Assembly: GCA_902812465.1 (NCBI GenBank) | Contig: CADDZE010000015.1 | Span: 1-64,000 of the forward strand | Source: Acidobacteriota bacterium | GTDB lineage: Bacteria; Acidobacteriota; Terriglobia; UBA7540 | Reading direction: 5' to 3' | DNA length: 64,000 nt | In this document: positions 5,009 through 11,230 of the stretch, piece by piece | How the letters are laid out: each line of letters begins with the position of its first letter | How positions within the stretch are numbered: position 1 is the first letter of the stretch | Program-made: the position numbers and the translations under genes | The notes under the pieces: generated by a model | Seen by the model: the letters and a program-made list of their open reading frames with translations, nothing else | Database searches by the model: none | What the model was told of the DNA's origin: nothing

Positions 5009-6760
5009 TTAACGGCTAGTCTGTCCTTCCTTGACCACGATGAACTGGTCCGCCTCCACGCCGCCGAGGCGGTCAATGTGCCCGCTGGGCCAGCGTACTT
5101 CCAGCTGCTCGACTCTGCGGGCGGTGCCCAGCCCGAAGTGCTGCCGAAAGTCGCTCTGCGAAATATAGCTGGAGCCGCTCAGCACCTCTCGAAGCTGACG
5201 GCGTCCGCCGGCCGTCAGCACGATGCGGGCGCCGATGGCCGAGCGGTTGGAGCGCGTGCCCACCAGCTTCACGTTCAGCCAGTGGTGGCCACTGTGGTTG
5301 TCATTGCGCAGCAGCGACGGCGGCTCGCTCATGTTAAAAATCAGGACGTCAAGGTTGCCGTCGTTGTTGAAGTCACCAAAGGCGCAGCCACGGCTCGAGT
5401 GCGCCTCGAGCACGGCCCTGCCCGAAAGCTCCGTCACTTCTTCAAACGAGCCGTTGCCCAGGTTGCGGTAGACCACGCGCGGCGTCTTGAACTTGTACTC
5501 GGGATGGACTCTTTCTACTTCCGGGTAGACGCTGCCGGTGACGTGAAAAATGTCCAGCCAGCCGTCGTTATCGAGGTCGGCAAAATCCACTCCCCAGCAC
5601 ACATAGCGGGTGTTGACTGCCAGACCGGCGGCGTAGGTCACATCGTCAAAGAATTCTCCCTTCACGTTGCGGTACAGGATGGGGGTGTCATCGCTGAAGT
5701 GAGGCAAGAAGAGGTCCAAGTAGCCGTCGCCGTCGTAGTCGCCCACCCCGACCCCCATGTTGGCCTGTTCCTGGCCGTCGCCGTTCACGGAGCAGCCTGC
5801 TTCCATGCCGATTTCGGTGAAGGTGCCGTCGTGGTTATTGCGGTAAAGCAGATTCGGCGTGGAGTCGCACGCCACAAACAGGTCAGGCCAGCCGTCGTTG
5901 TTGTAGTCCAAAGCGACGGCGGTCAAGCCGTAGCGGCTGCCGCCTTTGAGGATACCCGACTTGGCGCTGACATCGGTGAAGGTGCCATCGCCATTGTTAC
6001 GATAGAGCGTGCAGACGTCCCGCTTAAGCCCGAGAGGGCCACAATTGACCGGCACGTCGCGAAACTTGCAGTAACGGCTTGAGCCGCCGACAGGCGTGGC
6101 CGCCAAATCCAGGTCAATGTAGCGGCTGATAAACAGATCGAGGTATCCATCGCGGTCATAATCGACAAAGGTACATCCGGTGGCAAAACGCGTGCCGGAC
6201 TCGCGGAGTCCCGCTTCCTTGGTCACCTCGCTAAAAGTGCCGTCGCCATTGTTGTGGTAGAGGACGTTAGTTCCATAGTAAGTCAAGAACAAATCGACAT
6301 GACCATCGTTGTCGTAATCGCCCGCACAGACGCCGTAGCACCAGCCGGTCCTCTCGAGGCCGGCCTTAGCCGTCACCTCCGTAAAGGTTCCGTCGCGGTT
6401 GTTGCGGTAGAGGCGATTGGTCGGTGGCTGGCCGGCGGGAAAACCCTCGAGGCGAGTGCCGCTGGGCACGAAAATATCCAGCCAGCCGTCATCGTCGTAA
6501 TCCAGGAAGGCAATGCCGGGTCCGTTCGCTTCCACAATATAGCGCTTGACGTACTCGTCGCCGTAGATGGCGGGAGCCGTCAGCCCGGCCGCCGGGGCAA
6601 TGTCGGTAAAAGTAACCGGCCAGAGCCTCCCGGAAAATCGCGGCCGGGGCGCGGGCCGCACCCCCCGCGATGCCATTCCCTGCCCGTGGAGCGCCGCGCC
6701 AGGGAGGAAAAGGCCGGCCACTCCGGCTGCTCGCAAAAAGCTTCGGCGGGTGAGACGCAT
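5009..6760 (-). CDS. CRTAC1-family FG-GAP/ASPIC-UnbV secreted protein
   Basis: This 583-residue protein begins with a twin-arginine signal (LTRRSFLRAAGVAG). At least seven FG-GAP/VCBS beta-propeller repeats follow, each with a Ca-binding-like loop such as DYDNDGHVDLF, DYDRDGYLDLF, DYNNDGWPDLF, DLDNDGWLDIF and DFNNDGNLDV. The C-terminal part (about 500-575, LVGTRSNRSAIGARIVL to EVRWPSGHID) matches the ASPIC/UnbV domain. Such proteins are exported in Acidobacteriota and Planctomycetes, and their exact role is unknown. The gene starts 5 bases after the stop of a TPR gene, a pairing common in this phylum, so the TPR protein and the propeller are probably partners. The start is fixed by the Tat motif. 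Confidence 0.9.
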   Translation of the reverse strand: MRLTRRSFLRAAGVAGLFLPGAALHGQGMASRGVRPAPRPRFSGRLWPVTFTDIAPAAGLTAPAIYGDEYVKRYIVEANGPGIAFLDYDDDGWLDIFVPSGTRLEGFPAGQPPTNRLYRNNRDGTFTEVTAKAGLERTGWCYGVCAGDYDNDGHVDLFLTYYGTNVLYHNNGDGTFSEVTKEAGLRESGTRFATGCTFVDYDRDGYLDLFISRYIDLDLAATPVGGSSRYCKFRDVPVNCGPLGLKRDVCTLYRNNGDGTFTDVSAKSGILKGGSRYGLTAVALDYNNDGWPDLFVACDSTPNLLYRNNHDGTFTEIGMEAGCSVNGDGQEQANMGVGVGDYDGDGYLDLFLPHFSDDTPILYRNVKGEFFDDVTYAAGLAVNTRYVCWGVDFADLDNDGWLDIFHVTGSVYPEVERVHPEYKFKTPRVVYRNLGNGSFEEVTELSGRAVLEAHSSRGCAFGDFNNDGNLDVLIFNMSEPPSLLRNDNHSGHHWLNVKLVGTRSNRSAIGARIVLTAGGRRQLREVLSGSSYISQSDFRQHFGLGTARRVEQLEVRWPSGHIDRLGGVEADQFIVVKEGQTSR

Positions 6761-6765
6761 GCCGC

Positions 6766-8025
6766 TTACTCCGGAGGGTCGCTACTCTGGGGCTGAACCA
6801 TATTCCCGAGGATTCCTGCGCGGATACTCTGCTGCTTCCTCCGCAGGTTGGTCTGAGCTTCCCGGTAGGCAGCGAGCTCTTTGGCTGCCTCGGCCCCCTG
6901 TCCCAAGCGGCGGTAAGCGAACGAGAGCTGATAGTGGGCATTGGGGTTCTCGGGCGCCACCTCCACGGCCCGCTTGAGCGGCTCAACTGCTTCCGGCGCG
7001 CGCCCCGCCGAGATCAGGGATTTCCCCAGCCCGATCAGCGCTTCGGCAAAGTCTGGGTCGATACTGGCCGCGCGCTGAAAATGCGCGATGGCTTCGTTCC
7101 ACTGGCGGCTTTGGCGCGCCATCTCCCCCAGCTCATATTCAGCTGCGGCGTTGTGCGGATCCACCTTCAGCTCTTCCTCAAACTCCCGGCGCGCTTCGTC
7201 CACCGCGCTGGGATTCTTCGCGGCGGCCAAGAGGAGCTGGCCTAACTGGTAGTGAATGCCGGGCAAATTGGGTTTCAGGGAGAGCACCTTGTGGTACTCG
7301 GAGATGGCCTCATCCAGTTTTCCCTCGAAGGCCAATACCTCGGCATTGAATTGGTGCGCCTGGTAGGAGTCCGGAGCTGTGGCCAGGAGGCGCTGGGATG
7401 CCTGAGTGGACAGCTCGGAGTAGACATGGCTGGCCAGGTACAGTACCTCCGGATCGTCTGGATAGCTGGCGGTGAGGGAACGAATCCAGTCGACCGCCTG
7501 ATCGGGCTGGTTCAGACTCATGGCGCAACGGACCGCCTCCGTGCCGATGCTTCGCTGGAGGGGGGGGTCCGTCGCGTGGGGGTAATCTTCACGAAGGTAA
7601 GGCAAAGCTTCCCGGCAACGGCCACTCTCCGCCAGGCTGAGCGCCAGAACGAAACGCGGGTAGGTCAAGGAAGGCTTTAACTTCAGGGCTTGGCGCGCCT
7701 GTTGAGCGGCGCCGTCCAAGCGCCCCAGGTGGTAGTACGCCAGAGCCAGGTTGGCGTGAACCTCCGCCGTCTCCGGGGTCACCTTCAGCAGCCCTTCGAG
7801 AGCTGCGGCGGCCTTCGCATATTCATTCTGGCTGAGCGCCTGGCGCGCTTCAGCAGCGAGAGCGGCTGCGGCTCCCCGCGAGCCGCCTCCGGCAGGCGGC
7901 ACAGCTTGTGCATAGGCGGGCGGGACTTCGGCCAGCCCCAGCAGGAGGAGCACCAACCACCCCTGGTGCCCCCATTTCAACGAAAGGGCCCGCACGTTCG
8001 CTTTCGCGCCTGCACTTCGCCTCAT
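6766..8025 (-). CDS. Secreted TPR protein paired with CRTAC1-like protein
   Basis: This 419-residue protein has an N-terminal basic stretch and hydrophobic segment (about residues 22-38, WLVLLLLGLAEVPPAYAQA), so it is exported. About nine TPR units follow from residue 50 to 395, for example AEVHANLALAYYHLGRLDGA and AEALIGLGKSLISAGRAPEA. It is the first gene of a two-gene unit with the FG-GAP/UnbV gene 5 bases downstream. In acidobacterial genomes this pair recurs, sometimes near polysaccharide or alcohol metabolism, but its biochemical role is not established. The start at 8025 places the basic N-region before the hydrophobic core; an internal start nearer the hydrophobic core is possible. 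Confidence 0.88.
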   Translation of the reverse strand: MRRSAGAKANVRALSLKWGHQGWLVLLLLGLAEVPPAYAQAVPPAGGGSRGAAAALAAEARQALSQNEYAKAAAALEGLLKVTPETAEVHANLALAYYHLGRLDGAAQQARQALKLKPSLTYPRFVLALSLAESGRCREALPYLREDYPHATDPPLQRSIGTEAVRCAMSLNQPDQAVDWIRSLTASYPDDPEVLYLASHVYSELSTQASQRLLATAPDSYQAHQFNAEVLAFEGKLDEAISEYHKVLSLKPNLPGIHYQLGQLLLAAAKNPSAVDEARREFEEELKVDPHNAAAEYELGEMARQSRQWNEAIAHFQRAASIDPDFAEALIGLGKSLISAGRAPEAVEPLKRAVEVAPENPNAHYQLSFAYRRLGQGAEAAKELAAYREAQTNLRRKQQSIRAGILGNMVQPQSSDPPE

Positions 8026-8094
8026 CAGCCCCTATTGTGCCACATGGTCCGCCGAGGAGGGTCGAGGCGGTGCAAAAGTTTTTCGGCTGGATTA

Positions 8095-8403
8095 TCAACG
8101 AAGCCAGCTCACCCAGTAAGGCAAGGACCACAAAGCGGCGGAGAGGAGCGCGGCCATCCAGAGGACGATTCGGCTCCACCGCGGTCCGAGCCGTTTACCG
8201 TAGGCCAGATAAAATCCCGCCCCCAGCGCGAGTACCGAGACCGGGAAGAGATAAACTCGATAGGCCGTCAACCTGACAGCCAGGCTTCCTCCTGCCAAGC
8301 CGGCGCCGGCAGAAAGCAGCACCAGCACTCATCAAAGATTGGGCAGCAAGGCGGTCGCCACCGCAAGCAAGCTTGCGCCCAGTGATTTGCCTCGATCTCT
8401 CAT
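8095..8403 (-). CDS. MerT-like membrane protein with Sec-Sec (UGA UGA), probable selenoprotein
   Basis: Reading from the ATG at 8403, preceded by a GGAG site (GCGGAGAACGGAATG), gives 23 codons, two consecutive TGA codons (8334-8332 and 8331-8329), then 77 open codons to the stop at 8095. Read through, this is a 102-residue protein with about three membrane segments. The double UGA sits at the end of the first helix (ALLPNL-UU-VLVLLSAGAG), exactly where MerT-type mercuric ion transporters carry their Cys-Cys pair. A hairpin with bacterial SECIS geometry follows 16 bases after the second UGA. The gene lies 25 bases after the MFS gene of the same operon. Inference: a Sec-Sec metal(loid) or chalcogen transporter. 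Alternative: a nonsense-inactivated gene. A conventional gene caller would find only the 77-codon tail. Confidence 0.82.
8292..8312 (-). promoter_or_regulatory. Candidate bacterial SECIS hairpin for the double UGA
   Basis: On the mRNA strand CUGCC (8312-8308) pairs perfectly with GGCAG (8296-8292) around the 11-base loop GGCGCCGGCUU. The stem starts 16 bases and the loop 21 bases after the second UGA. The first two loop bases are G. This agrees with the general bacterial SECIS pattern: short stem, 3-14 base loop with a G in the first two positions, loop about 16-37 bases after UGA. Confidence 0.6.
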
Positions 8404-8428
8404 TCCGTTCTCCGCGCAGTGACTTCTT

Positions 8429-9787
8429 CTACTTCCCAACAGGCATTGGGACTTCCAGGTGCTTCGTTCCCAGCGTCTCGCGCATCCCCAAAGCTACTTG
8501 CAGGCCGGATAAGAGCGTCATGGCTGCCACCACTCGAATCGCGGCCGGCATGCCCAGCGCATCGGCCACGATGCCGGAAATCAGGGCACCAAGGGCATAG
8601 CCCAGGTCGCGCCAGAAGCGGTAAATGCCCATGCACGTGGCGCGCCAGTCCGGGTAAGCGACGTCGCTGATAGCTGCCAGCAGTGTCGGGTAGACCATCG
8701 CCGTGCCGACTCCCTGTAGCAGCGCCGCAAGGATCCAGGCCGGGTAAGCGCGAATCGTAACTGTTAGCCAAATTGCCGCCGCTTGTACGATCATTCCGCT
8801 GGCAATCAGCCACTTTCGTCCCCAACGGTCGCTCACGGGTCCAGTGACTATCTGCAGGAGGCCCCAGGCGGCAGGGTACACGGCCTTGATGATCCCAATC
8901 GCCGCTACACCGAGGCCGAGGCTGGAGAAAAACAGCGGATAGATGCCCCATGACATCCCATCGTTGAGGTTGTTCACCAGGCCCGCCTGGCTGCAGGAGA
9001 ACATATCACGGTCGTTCCACGAAACCAGCGCGAAGACTTGGCGCAGCCCGGGAGGCCTGCCGCTGGTCACGACGCCTCGGGGCAGGTCGGGCATGTGCAA
9101 CCTCGCTTCCAGCGCCGCGTGAGCCCGAGTCTCTTTCGCAAACAAGAGTGAGAGCAGGAGACCGGCGAGGGCTACGCCGATACCCAGGTAGAAAGGCTGC
9201 GGCCGCAGTTGGTAGATAGAGGCCAAGTAACCGGTGATCCAGGCCGTGAATCCGACGGCTGCGTAGCCCGCAAACTCGTTGAGCCCGAGCGCAAGGCCCC
9301 GCTGCCTGGGCCCTACAAGATCCACCTTCATAATCACCGTCATGGACCAGCATAGCGCCTGGTTGACGCCGAGAAGCACGTTGGCAACATCGAACCAAAA
9401 CCAGCGGCGGGCGACGATGATGATGAAGGGAACCGGCAAGCCGAACAGCCATCCCAAGACCAGTACCGGTTTGCGTCCAGCCTTTTCTGAGACACGGCCC
9501 GCAAACAGATTACAGACTGCCTTGGTCACCCCGAAGCTAACAATGAAGGAACTGATCGCCGTCTTGGAAACGAGGCCAAACTCCTTCTCGCCAATCAGCG
9601 GGACCACCGTTCTCTCCAGGCCCACCATCATGCCCACGAAGGCGTTGATCAACACCAGCAGCGAGAACTGGCCGAGGTTCTCCCGCAGCCCTAAGCGGAT
9701 CGGTGGGATGCTCTCCGGCCCGGCGAGCGGGCTGCTTAACCCGTCCTGCTGGGACCCAAGGTTGGCAGCCGAGCCGCGGGCAGACAT
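8429..9787 (-). CDS. MFS transporter in the selenoprotein operon
   Basis: This 452-residue polytopic protein has about twelve hydrophobic segments. An MFS loop motif (GRVSEKAGRKPVLVLGW) follows helix 2 and a second copy (GPVSDRWGRKWLI) sits in the second half. The ATG at 9787 overlaps the TAA of the upstream MBL gene by one base (TAATG), which suggests translational coupling. The frame stays open further upstream but there it only shadows the MBL gene. The substrate is unknown. Genes for MFS carriers next to an MBL hydrolase and an ArsR-rhodanese regulator suggest export or uptake of a sulfur, selenium or metalloid compound; that is inference. The next gene is the MerT-like UGA-UGA gene. Confidence 0.88.
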   Translation of the reverse strand: MSARGSAANLGSQQDGLSSPLAGPESIPPIRLGLRENLGQFSLLVLINAFVGMMVGLERTVVPLIGEKEFGLVSKTAISSFIVSFGVTKAVCNLFAGRVSEKAGRKPVLVLGWLFGLPVPFIIIVARRWFWFDVANVLLGVNQALCWSMTVIMKVDLVGPRQRGLALGLNEFAGYAAVGFTAWITGYLASIYQLRPQPFYLGIGVALAGLLLSLLFAKETRAHAALEARLHMPDLPRGVVTSGRPPGLRQVFALVSWNDRDMFSCSQAGLVNNLNDGMSWGIYPLFFSSLGLGVAAIGIIKAVYPAAWGLLQIVTGPVSDRWGRKWLIASGMIVQAAAIWLTVTIRAYPAWILAALLQGVGTAMVYPTLLAAISDVAYPDWRATCMGIYRFWRDLGYALGALISGIVADALGMPAAIRVVAAMTLLSGLQVALGMRETLGTKHLEVPMPVGK

Positions 9788-10527
9788 TAGCTCTCCGGTG
9801 GTAAGCCCAGATTGGCGGCGCGGATCGCGGCCGCCTGGGCGGGCGGCGCTGGGATGTTCTCCAACATGTAGCGCACAAAGGCGTCCCGGTCCTCGAGCCG
9901 GAAGGCCCAATTGAACCGGCGCTCGAACCCGATGGTTGAAGTTGGCTTCCCACTGAGCGCGCGTCCGCAGACTGAGCCAGCAAAAGCCCCAGGCAGCACC
10001 TCGATGTAATCGGGAAGCGCCTTCAGCTTTTGCACGCTGTCGAAAAGGGCTTGCGCCCCCTCTTCCGCACCGGAGGCGAGTTCCGTCCGTCCCAGGTCGC
10101 CAATCATCAGGGTATGTCCTGTGAGCACGAACCACGGCTCGGGCCCGCGAGTGTTGTCCGTCACCAGCAGGCAGATGTGTTCGGGCGTGTGGCCCGGAGT
10201 ATGCAGAATCCGGGCCTGGACGTTACCGAGGCCCAGAACAGCGCCCTCCTCTACCCCGAGGAAGTCGTAGCGGGCCGGTGCGCTGGCGTGCAGAACATAC
10301 TCGGCATCCGCCAATTGGGCGAGCTTGCGGCCGCCCGAAAGGTGATCGGCATGAACGTGGGTGTCGATGACGTAGCGGATTCGCAGCCCGTTCGCCTCGG
10401 CGGCGCGCAAGTAGAACTGAGGATCATCCAAGGGGTCGCACACGGCGCCCAGCGCCTTTCCGCCTCAGCCAAAGAGATAGGAAACGGCTACGACCGGCGA
10501 TGTGTGGAGAAACTGGCGGAGAATCAT
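9787..10527 (-). CDS. MBL-fold hydrolase (persulfide-dioxygenase-like) with in-frame UGA, probable selenoprotein
   Basis: The ATG at 10527 has a GGAG site six bases upstream and lies 19 bases after the ArsR-rhodanese stop. The frame runs 20 codons, meets TGA at 10467-10465 (codon 21), then stays open to the TAA at 9789-9787, giving 246 residues. The N-terminus reads SYLFG-U-GGKALGAVCDP; as I recall, relatives read FGCGGK, so UGA replaces a conserved Cys. Metal ligands of the metallo-beta-lactamase fold follow: THVHADH (H57, H59, D61, H62), TPGHTPEH (H113) and GDLGRTE (D144). The later region is PGAFAGSVCG, without the usual His after Gly. A candidate SECIS hairpin follows the UGA. Likely role: hydrolase or dioxygenase on persulfide or selenyl-persulfide substrates. 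An annotation beginning at the GTG at 10443 would lose the first strand. Confidence 0.85.
10433..10450 (-). promoter_or_regulatory. Candidate bacterial SECIS hairpin in the MBL gene
   Basis: The mRNA segment GGGCGCCGUGUGCGACCC folds as GGGCGC pairing with GCG-A-CCC (one bulged A) around the loop CGUGU, whose second base is G. The loop starts 21 bases after the UGA at 10467-10465, a canonical distance. An overlapping alternative, GGCGC-UGG-GCGCC, is a mutually exclusive perfect stem slightly closer to the UGA. Confidence 0.55.
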
Positions 10528-10546: not shown

Positions 10547-11230
10547 TCATGGCACGCCCGGGCCGGCCTCCACGGGCAGGTGCCGGCTCTTCCACTCCGG
10601 GAATCCTTCCCGCAGGCGGACGGCACGATAACCGCGGGAGGAGAGCACGGCTACCGCCTCGTCGGCAAATACACAATAAGGGCCCCGGCAATACGCCACG
10701 ATCTGCTTGCGGCGGGGAATTTCCTTCAAGCGGGCTTTCAACTCCGCTAGGGGGATGGATCGCGCTCCGGCAATATGGCCGGCCTCGTACTCCTGACGCG
10801 GCCGCACATCCAACACCCATACGGCCTTCTCTCGAATTCGCCGGAGAAGCTCCTCACAGCTGATCGGTTCGAGCCTCTGGCGCGAAGTGAGATAGGCATC
10901 CACCAGGCGCTGGACCTCCGCCAGGTGCTTTTCGCCCAGGCGGCGGAGCACCCGGCACAACGTCAGCACGTCCTCGCTGGCCAAGCCGTAGTACGCGTAA
11001 AGTCCGTTCCGCTTTACGCTGACCACGTTGCATCGCCGCAGCACCTGCAAGTGCTGCGACGCGTTAGCCACCGAAAGTCCCGCTTCGCGCGCCAGGTCCT
11101 CGACAGTGCGAGGCGCTTGAGCCAGCAGCTCCAGAATCTCCAGGCGGTGGCCATTGGCAACGCTCTTGCCAATGCGGGCGAACTGTTCAAACAGCTGGTC
11201 CTTGAACTCACGCTTGTGTGCCCCGTTCAT
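10547..11230 (-). CDS. ArsR-family regulator fused to a rhodanese domain
   Basis: The 227-residue protein has two parts. Residues 8-105 form a winged helix of the ArsR/SmtB type (LEILELLAQAPRTVEDLA, then ANASQHLQVLRRC). Residues 120-220 form a rhodanese domain with DVRPRQEYEAGHI and a catalytic-loop motif CRGPYC (C181, C186). Cys67 and Cys92 in the DNA-binding half could be redox or metal sensing, as in thiol-based ArsR repressors. It is the first gene of the operon and ends 19 bases before the MBL gene. A palindrome and a -35-like TTGACA lie just upstream, so autoregulation is likely. Inference: it senses sulfane sulfur, selenium or a metalloid. Unlike the two downstream proteins, its reactive cysteines are encoded normally. 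Confidence 0.9.
   Translation of the reverse strand: MNGAHKREFKDQLFEQFARIGKSVANGHRLEILELLAQAPRTVEDLAREAGLSVANASQHLQVLRRCNVVSVKRNGLYAYYGLASEDVLTLCRVLRRLGEKHLAEVQRLVDAYLTSRQRLEPISCEELLRRIREKAVWVLDVRPRQEYEAGHIAGARSIPLAELKARLKEIPRRKQIVAYCRGPYCVFADEAVAVLSSRGYRAVRLREGFPEWKSRHLPVEAGPGVP

Follow-up and report, generated by a model that had tools for sequence, protein, structure and literature searches.

The window analysed here, a stretch of 64,000 nucleotides from an Acidobacteriota genome, carries on its minus strand a run of four genes that overlap or are separated by gaps of at most about 25 bases. The first (10547..11230, minus strand) encodes an ArsR-family HTH domain fused to a rhodanese domain with the motif CRGPYC (PF01022, PF00581), and is the probable regulator of the operon. 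It is followed by the gene of an MBL-fold, persulfide-dioxygenase-like hydrolase (9787..10527, minus strand; PF00753), in which one UGA lies in frame, and by an MFS transporter gene (8429..9787, minus strand; PF07690, E=1.2e-41) whose ATG overlaps the stop codon of the MBL gene. The last gene (8095..8403, minus strand) has two consecutive in-frame UGA codons and is assigned to a MerT-like membrane protein by its frame and translation, six orthologues and a match to the NCBIfam model merT_RC607. All three UGAs that we read as selenocysteine (Sec, U) in this operon are at Cys positions. Beside the operon, the segment 463-8025 of the window holds several TPR-rich genes, with a repeat protein of FG-GAP/ASPIC appearance at 5009-6760.

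The Sec-Sec gene begins at the ATG at 8403, with GGAG upstream, and ends with TGA TAA, the stop codon occupying 8097-8095. Its tandem UGA UGA (8329..8334, minus strand; the single codons at 8334-8332 and 8331-8329) corresponds to codons 24-25, in the context CCC AAT CTT TGA TGA GTG CTG, and is the only interruption of a hydrophobic frame of 102 residues. The ribosome site, the upstream start and the 77 open, hydrophobic codons past the pair, pointed out in the first-pass annotation of this DNA, were confirmed on the minus strand. Translated with read-through, the product is MRDRGKSLGASLLAVATALLPNLUUVLVLLSAGAGLAGGSLAVRLTAYRVYLFPVSVLALGAGFYLAYGKRLGPRWSRIVLWMAALLSAALWSLPYWVSWLR, and does not contain a single Cys. 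An AlphaFold model of low confidence (pLDDT 58) has three long helices and a short one.

A read-through search in 200 related genomes disclosed five more copies of the gene, with 62-69% identity, and a seventh member (41% identity), also with two internal TGAs, came from 396 genomes searched across the phylum. Over all searches, comprising 1644 genome visits, the family has seven carrier genomes, the window's own included; the named records among them are Acidobacteria metagenome-assembled genomes. Each of the seven members has exactly two internal TGAs, adjacent and in the same codons. While all 14 internal stop codons are TGA, the terminal ones vary among TGA, TAA and TAG. Forms of this subfamily with a single TGA, or with TAA or TAG at the site, were not found in searches of the class (399 genomes), of 149 genomes related to the seventh and of 89 genomes from another carrier's family; a plasmid collection yielded no relative.

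Pairwise differences among the six close members downstream of the TGAs are distributed over codon positions 1/2/3 as 297/116/548 in the TGA frame, with pS of 0.61, pN of 0.19 and a median dN/dS of 0.18. This pattern, together with the low dN/dS, indicates that the gene is translated past the TGAs and selected in their frame; the part downstream is under purifying selection. Because seven independent genomes keep both UGAs, these codons almost certainly encode two adjacent selenocysteines. Random decay or sequencing error, to which a short gene with two early stops and an automatic ORF call of only the 77-aa remainder 3' of the stops might be ascribed, is refuted by the orthologues to the point of being hardly conceivable, since the same double TGA is shared by seven separate genomes, synonymous sites are close to saturation, dN/dS is about 0.18, and no further internal stop or frameshift occurs in any member. 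The initial doubt that decay could account for the double stop is thus borne out, and the other stops and frameshifts named there as evidence to the contrary are absent.

Comparison with homologues that lack a stop at the site places the UGA pair in register with a pair of cysteines. In the alignment of the seven Sec-Sec proteins with 21 Cys homologues from the same phylum and from other phyla, the two columns hold UU in the former and CC in the latter, with no instance of UC, CU or any other residue, and they are the only invariant columns. The Cys homologues were gathered with CC-bearing queries, which introduces some sample bias into these counts, while the full-length match is independent of it. 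In a blind test of the register, the UU was masked as XX and a profile was built from the Cys homologues alone. This profile matched all seven Sec-Sec proteins (E 4e-14 to 3e-12), and the alignments listed set XX exactly under CC. The proposal that the UGAs coincide with the vicinal Cys pair of MerT-type proteins, which entailed that only CC, UC, CU or UU should be met at this site, is therefore upheld.

In MerT, Hg(II) transport depends on the helix 1 pair Cys24 and Cys25, and the metal is next received by Cys76 and Cys82 at the cytoplasmic face (PMC5715351). The Sec-Sec pair fills the position of the helix 1 vicinal pair, while the loop that joins helices 2 and 3 and carries the second Cys pair in MerT is deleted from the Sec-Sec proteins. 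The window protein matches merT_RC607 with E=4.5e-8, but its score of 33.4 bits is below the curated cut-off, which is 130. MerT was not matched in a Pfam search of the protein, a PDB sequence search returned no MerT relative, and NF045683 did not match the UU family at E 0.01. In addition, no adjoining mer operon (merR, merP, merA) was present in the window or in close relatives. With the second Cys pair gone, the score below the cut-off and no mer operon, the protein is best described as MerT-like and not as a canonical MerT.

The register also bears on the possibility that the gene makes two peptides, a leader of 23 aa that stops at TGA TGA, followed by another protein started by re-initiation. 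In the window, GTG follows the second TGA, and TGATG holds an out-of-frame ATG. This arrangement is not conserved, because only three of the seven members have GTG as the codon after the TGAs, the rest having GTT, GTC or GTA. Furthermore, the +1 and +2 frames run into stops at varying places or are unselected, and the homologues are one continuous protein with helix 1 spanning the site. Re-initiation is on these grounds largely refuted, and we hold it to be extremely unlikely.

Directly past the UGAs lies the 48-nt minimum of consensus folding energy of the Sec-Sec gene (-19.9 kcal/mol), compared to about -6 at best elsewhere in the gene, that is upstream of the UGAs or from 60 nt on. Two hairpins were recognized in this region. 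Hairpin 1 (8284..8320, minus strand), a putative SECIS, has its apical loop about 24-27 nt past the first UGA and 21-24 nt past the second. Five of its pairs have changes on both sides, a number not reached in any of 500 shuffles, and controls slid along the sequence performed worse; its z is -4.6 against column shuffles that preserve codon position. Hairpin 2 (8265..8279, minus strand), of the type CUGUCA-GG-UGACGG, has a z of -4.7 (0/300 shuffles) and an apical GG, and it includes an Arg codon, AGG, that does not vary among the six close members. Published limits for the bacterial SECIS are 16-37 nt to the apical loop, a G in the first two loop positions and a stem of at most -7.5 kcal/mol (PMC13188914). 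A SECIS search downstream of the UGAs, as had been suggested, gave hairpins formable within these limits for each UGA in 7/7 sequences, a count drawn from seven related sequences only. Rfam SECIS families did not match the hairpins, so the SECIS is a prediction only. That each of the two UGAs is served by a hairpin of its own is speculation.

The window's genome contains all of selA (576 bits), selB (370 bits), selC and selD; the tRNA-Sec has the anticodon TCA and scores 73 bits. Its selD (G000:C42:3121-4047, locus L039) has an in-frame UGA of its own at the usual site (AAGUAAK), with a strong hairpin 3' of it. All six genomes with a close Sec-Sec copy, the window's own included, have selA, compared to 146 of 200 relatives; because most relatives have the gene, this co-occurrence is a weak test and does not split carriers from non-carriers. 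A full protein would also result if UGA were generally reassigned, or leakily read by another tRNA such as that for Trp, without any selenium. We reject this reading and rate it as very improbable, as both sites are occupied by Cys in the homologues and not by Trp, UGA still terminates genes here (the Sec-Sec gene included), the Sec system is complete and accompanied by a Sec-containing SelD, and the three UGAs of the operon are all at Cys positions.

The UGA of the MBL gene (10465..10467, minus strand; codon 21, in the motif SYLFGUGG) falls, in an alignment with the MBL-rhodanese-type proteins 3tp9 and 3r2u, on their Cys (SYLVGC/SYLIGC), and is likewise read as Sec. Compared with known structures, the protein is most similar to 3tp9 (E=1e-46) and 3r2u (E=1e-44), and also resembles 4ysb and the ETHE1 structure 4chl. 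The HxHxDH motif is present as THVHADH. By its MBL fold, this motif and similarity to structures of persulfide dioxygenases (PDOs), the predicted protein is PDO-like. Homologues were detected at the search threshold in 55 of 200 relatives; a TGA occurs in only four, all of them Sec-Sec carriers in which the MBL gene adjoins the Sec-Sec gene. Other Acidobacteriota homologues examined have mostly Ser at this position. Past this UGA, the 15 bases that encode AVCDP, GCCGTGTGCGACCCC, are identical in the four loci, which hints at constraint at the RNA level; a hairpin common to the compared loci was not established for this UGA. No MBL-fold selenoprotein appears in a table that lists 119 families and subfamilies of selenoproteins in prokaryotes (PMC13188914). 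The MBL gene is a probable second new selenoprotein, in an apparently unlisted family.

In close relatives, an ArsR-rhodanese gene is also upstream of the Sec-Sec gene, and in relatives genes for DsrE, cytochrome c and sulfide:quinone-reductase-like proteins come after it. Genes of the last kind lie at L043:5518-6759, L044 about 6372-7609 and L045 about 7600-8839, and one such protein matches NF049943 with E=1e-63. The copy in L043 is close to the NCBIfam model SQR_III_seleno, and no UGA was seen in it. MerR-like and MerP/CopZ-like genes are present within a few kilobases of the divergent seventh member, and MerA above the cut-off was found in none of the seven carrier genomes.

These neighbours suggest sulfane-sulfur chemistry and leave mercury open as the substrate of the Sec-Sec protein; the immediate surroundings of the gene do not support mercury. 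Sulfane sulfur is a serious rival. The protein would then be made, not as a mercury protein, but for sulfane-sulfur or sulfide homeostasis, as a persulfide sulfur relay over the membrane working with a rhodanese-type sensor, a persulfide dioxygenase and a transporter. The ArsR-rhodanese regulator and the neighbour resembling MBL-rhodanese PDOs fit such a role, as do the DsrE and sulfide:quinone-reductase-like genes of relatives and the missing MerA. In Streptomyces, a regulator, a PDO, a rhodanese and a transporter form a comparable circuit (PMC7533328). On the other hand, the protein has the fold family and the CC/UU site of Hg(II) transport, and the MerR-like and MerP/CopZ-like genes near the seventh member also speak against sulfur. 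Overall, sulfur has in its favour the rhodanese-type regulator and the PDO-like Sec protein, and a metal has the protein family with its CC/UU site. We regard sulfane sulfur or persulfide as a tenable though tentative assignment, and give Hg(II) or another soft metal an even chance of being the substrate.

Several known systems share parts of this organization. The Sec-Sec protein and MerT (PF02411; NF033560, NF033556) are alike in length, helix pattern, the vicinal chalcogen pair of helix 1, the R.Y and GFYxxY motifs and the LW...PY of helix 3. Differences are UU in place of CC, the deleted cytoplasmic second Cys pair with no other Cys left, the absence of adjoining merP or merA and scores under the curated cut-offs. 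MerT-type selenoproteins were mentioned in the first-pass annotation, and rightly so: MerT with a single Sec is already known (PMC9312934, PMC2398784, PMC13188914), and the MerT/CopZ fusion-like proteins of NCBIfam NF045683 are also of this kind. The listed Sec-containing MerT forms (ABB16073.1; C/SxxU, PMC13188914) have one Sec per MerT in the 2026 table, whereas the UU family has an adjacent pair, and it differs from NF045683 in having no CopZ domain. A pair of consecutive Sec residues was described as the first of its kind in algal PDI_e, with the motif GUGUU (PMC7539508), but this is a eukaryotic PDI with other SECIS machinery. No adjacent Sec-Sec motif is included among the 119 prokaryotic families and subfamilies of the 2026 table (PMC13188914), and an earlier mention elsewhere is possible.

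Similarities also extend to the rest of the operon. A PDO-like MBL protein, a rhodanese, a regulator and a transporter are grouped likewise in the MBL-rhodanese PDOs (3tp9, 3r2u) and in the CsoR-PDO-rhodanese-transporter circuit of Streptomyces, but here Sec is present in the PDO-like protein, the ArsR regulator carries the rhodanese as a fused domain and the membrane component is MerT-like. Several selenoproteins per operon are also found in the Tso and SAO operons (cited in PMC13188914), whose listed selenoproteins, in contrast, include none that is MerT-like or of the MBL fold. The operon regulator has some similarity to TsoR, and its rhodanese domain to the one in TsoB, with scores below the cut-offs.

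As judged from the nucleotide and protein comparisons, the small gene very probably encodes a Cys-free, MerT-like selenoprotein with a Sec-Sec pair, in an operon with two selenoproteins. SelB and Sec-tRNA would decode both adjacent UGAs as Sec through hairpin 1, acting as SECIS for the two of them and perhaps aided by hairpin 2; this step is well supported. Sec-Sec incorporation into a MerT-like protein, regardless of its substrate, is in our estimate highly likely. The pair would lie in helix 1, as in MerT, forming a vicinal diselenol in an inner-membrane protein, a topology that we infer together with the direction of transport. For Hg(II) and soft electrophiles in general, a diselenol should be a stronger ligand than a dithiol. 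Since the Sec pair takes the place of the Cys pair that carries Hg(II) in MerT, it would most likely bind a soft electrophile and hand it across the membrane. The protein is probably co-expressed with the Sec-containing PDO-like enzyme, the MFS transporter and the ArsR-rhodanese regulator. The whole scheme, in which SelB decodes adjacent UGAs with one shared SECIS or tandem hairpins to give a Cys-free transporter with a Sec-Sec diselenol inside one of its membrane helices and, with the Sec-PDO-like enzyme, a dedicated selenium-based module for soft metals or sulfane sulfur in Acidobacteriota, appears to us reasonably probable.

Both the Sec-Sec and the MBL gene are cut short by ordinary ORF calling, and such genes therefore stay hidden. 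If the proposed reading is true, the Sec-Sec protein would represent a natural vicinal diselenol within a membrane helix, and Acidobacteriota would possess a two-selenoprotein operon. It would also raise a question of translation, namely how SelB serves consecutive UGAs when the SECIS is three bases nearer to the second, and the Sec-Sec gene offers a compact, testable reporter for this decoding.
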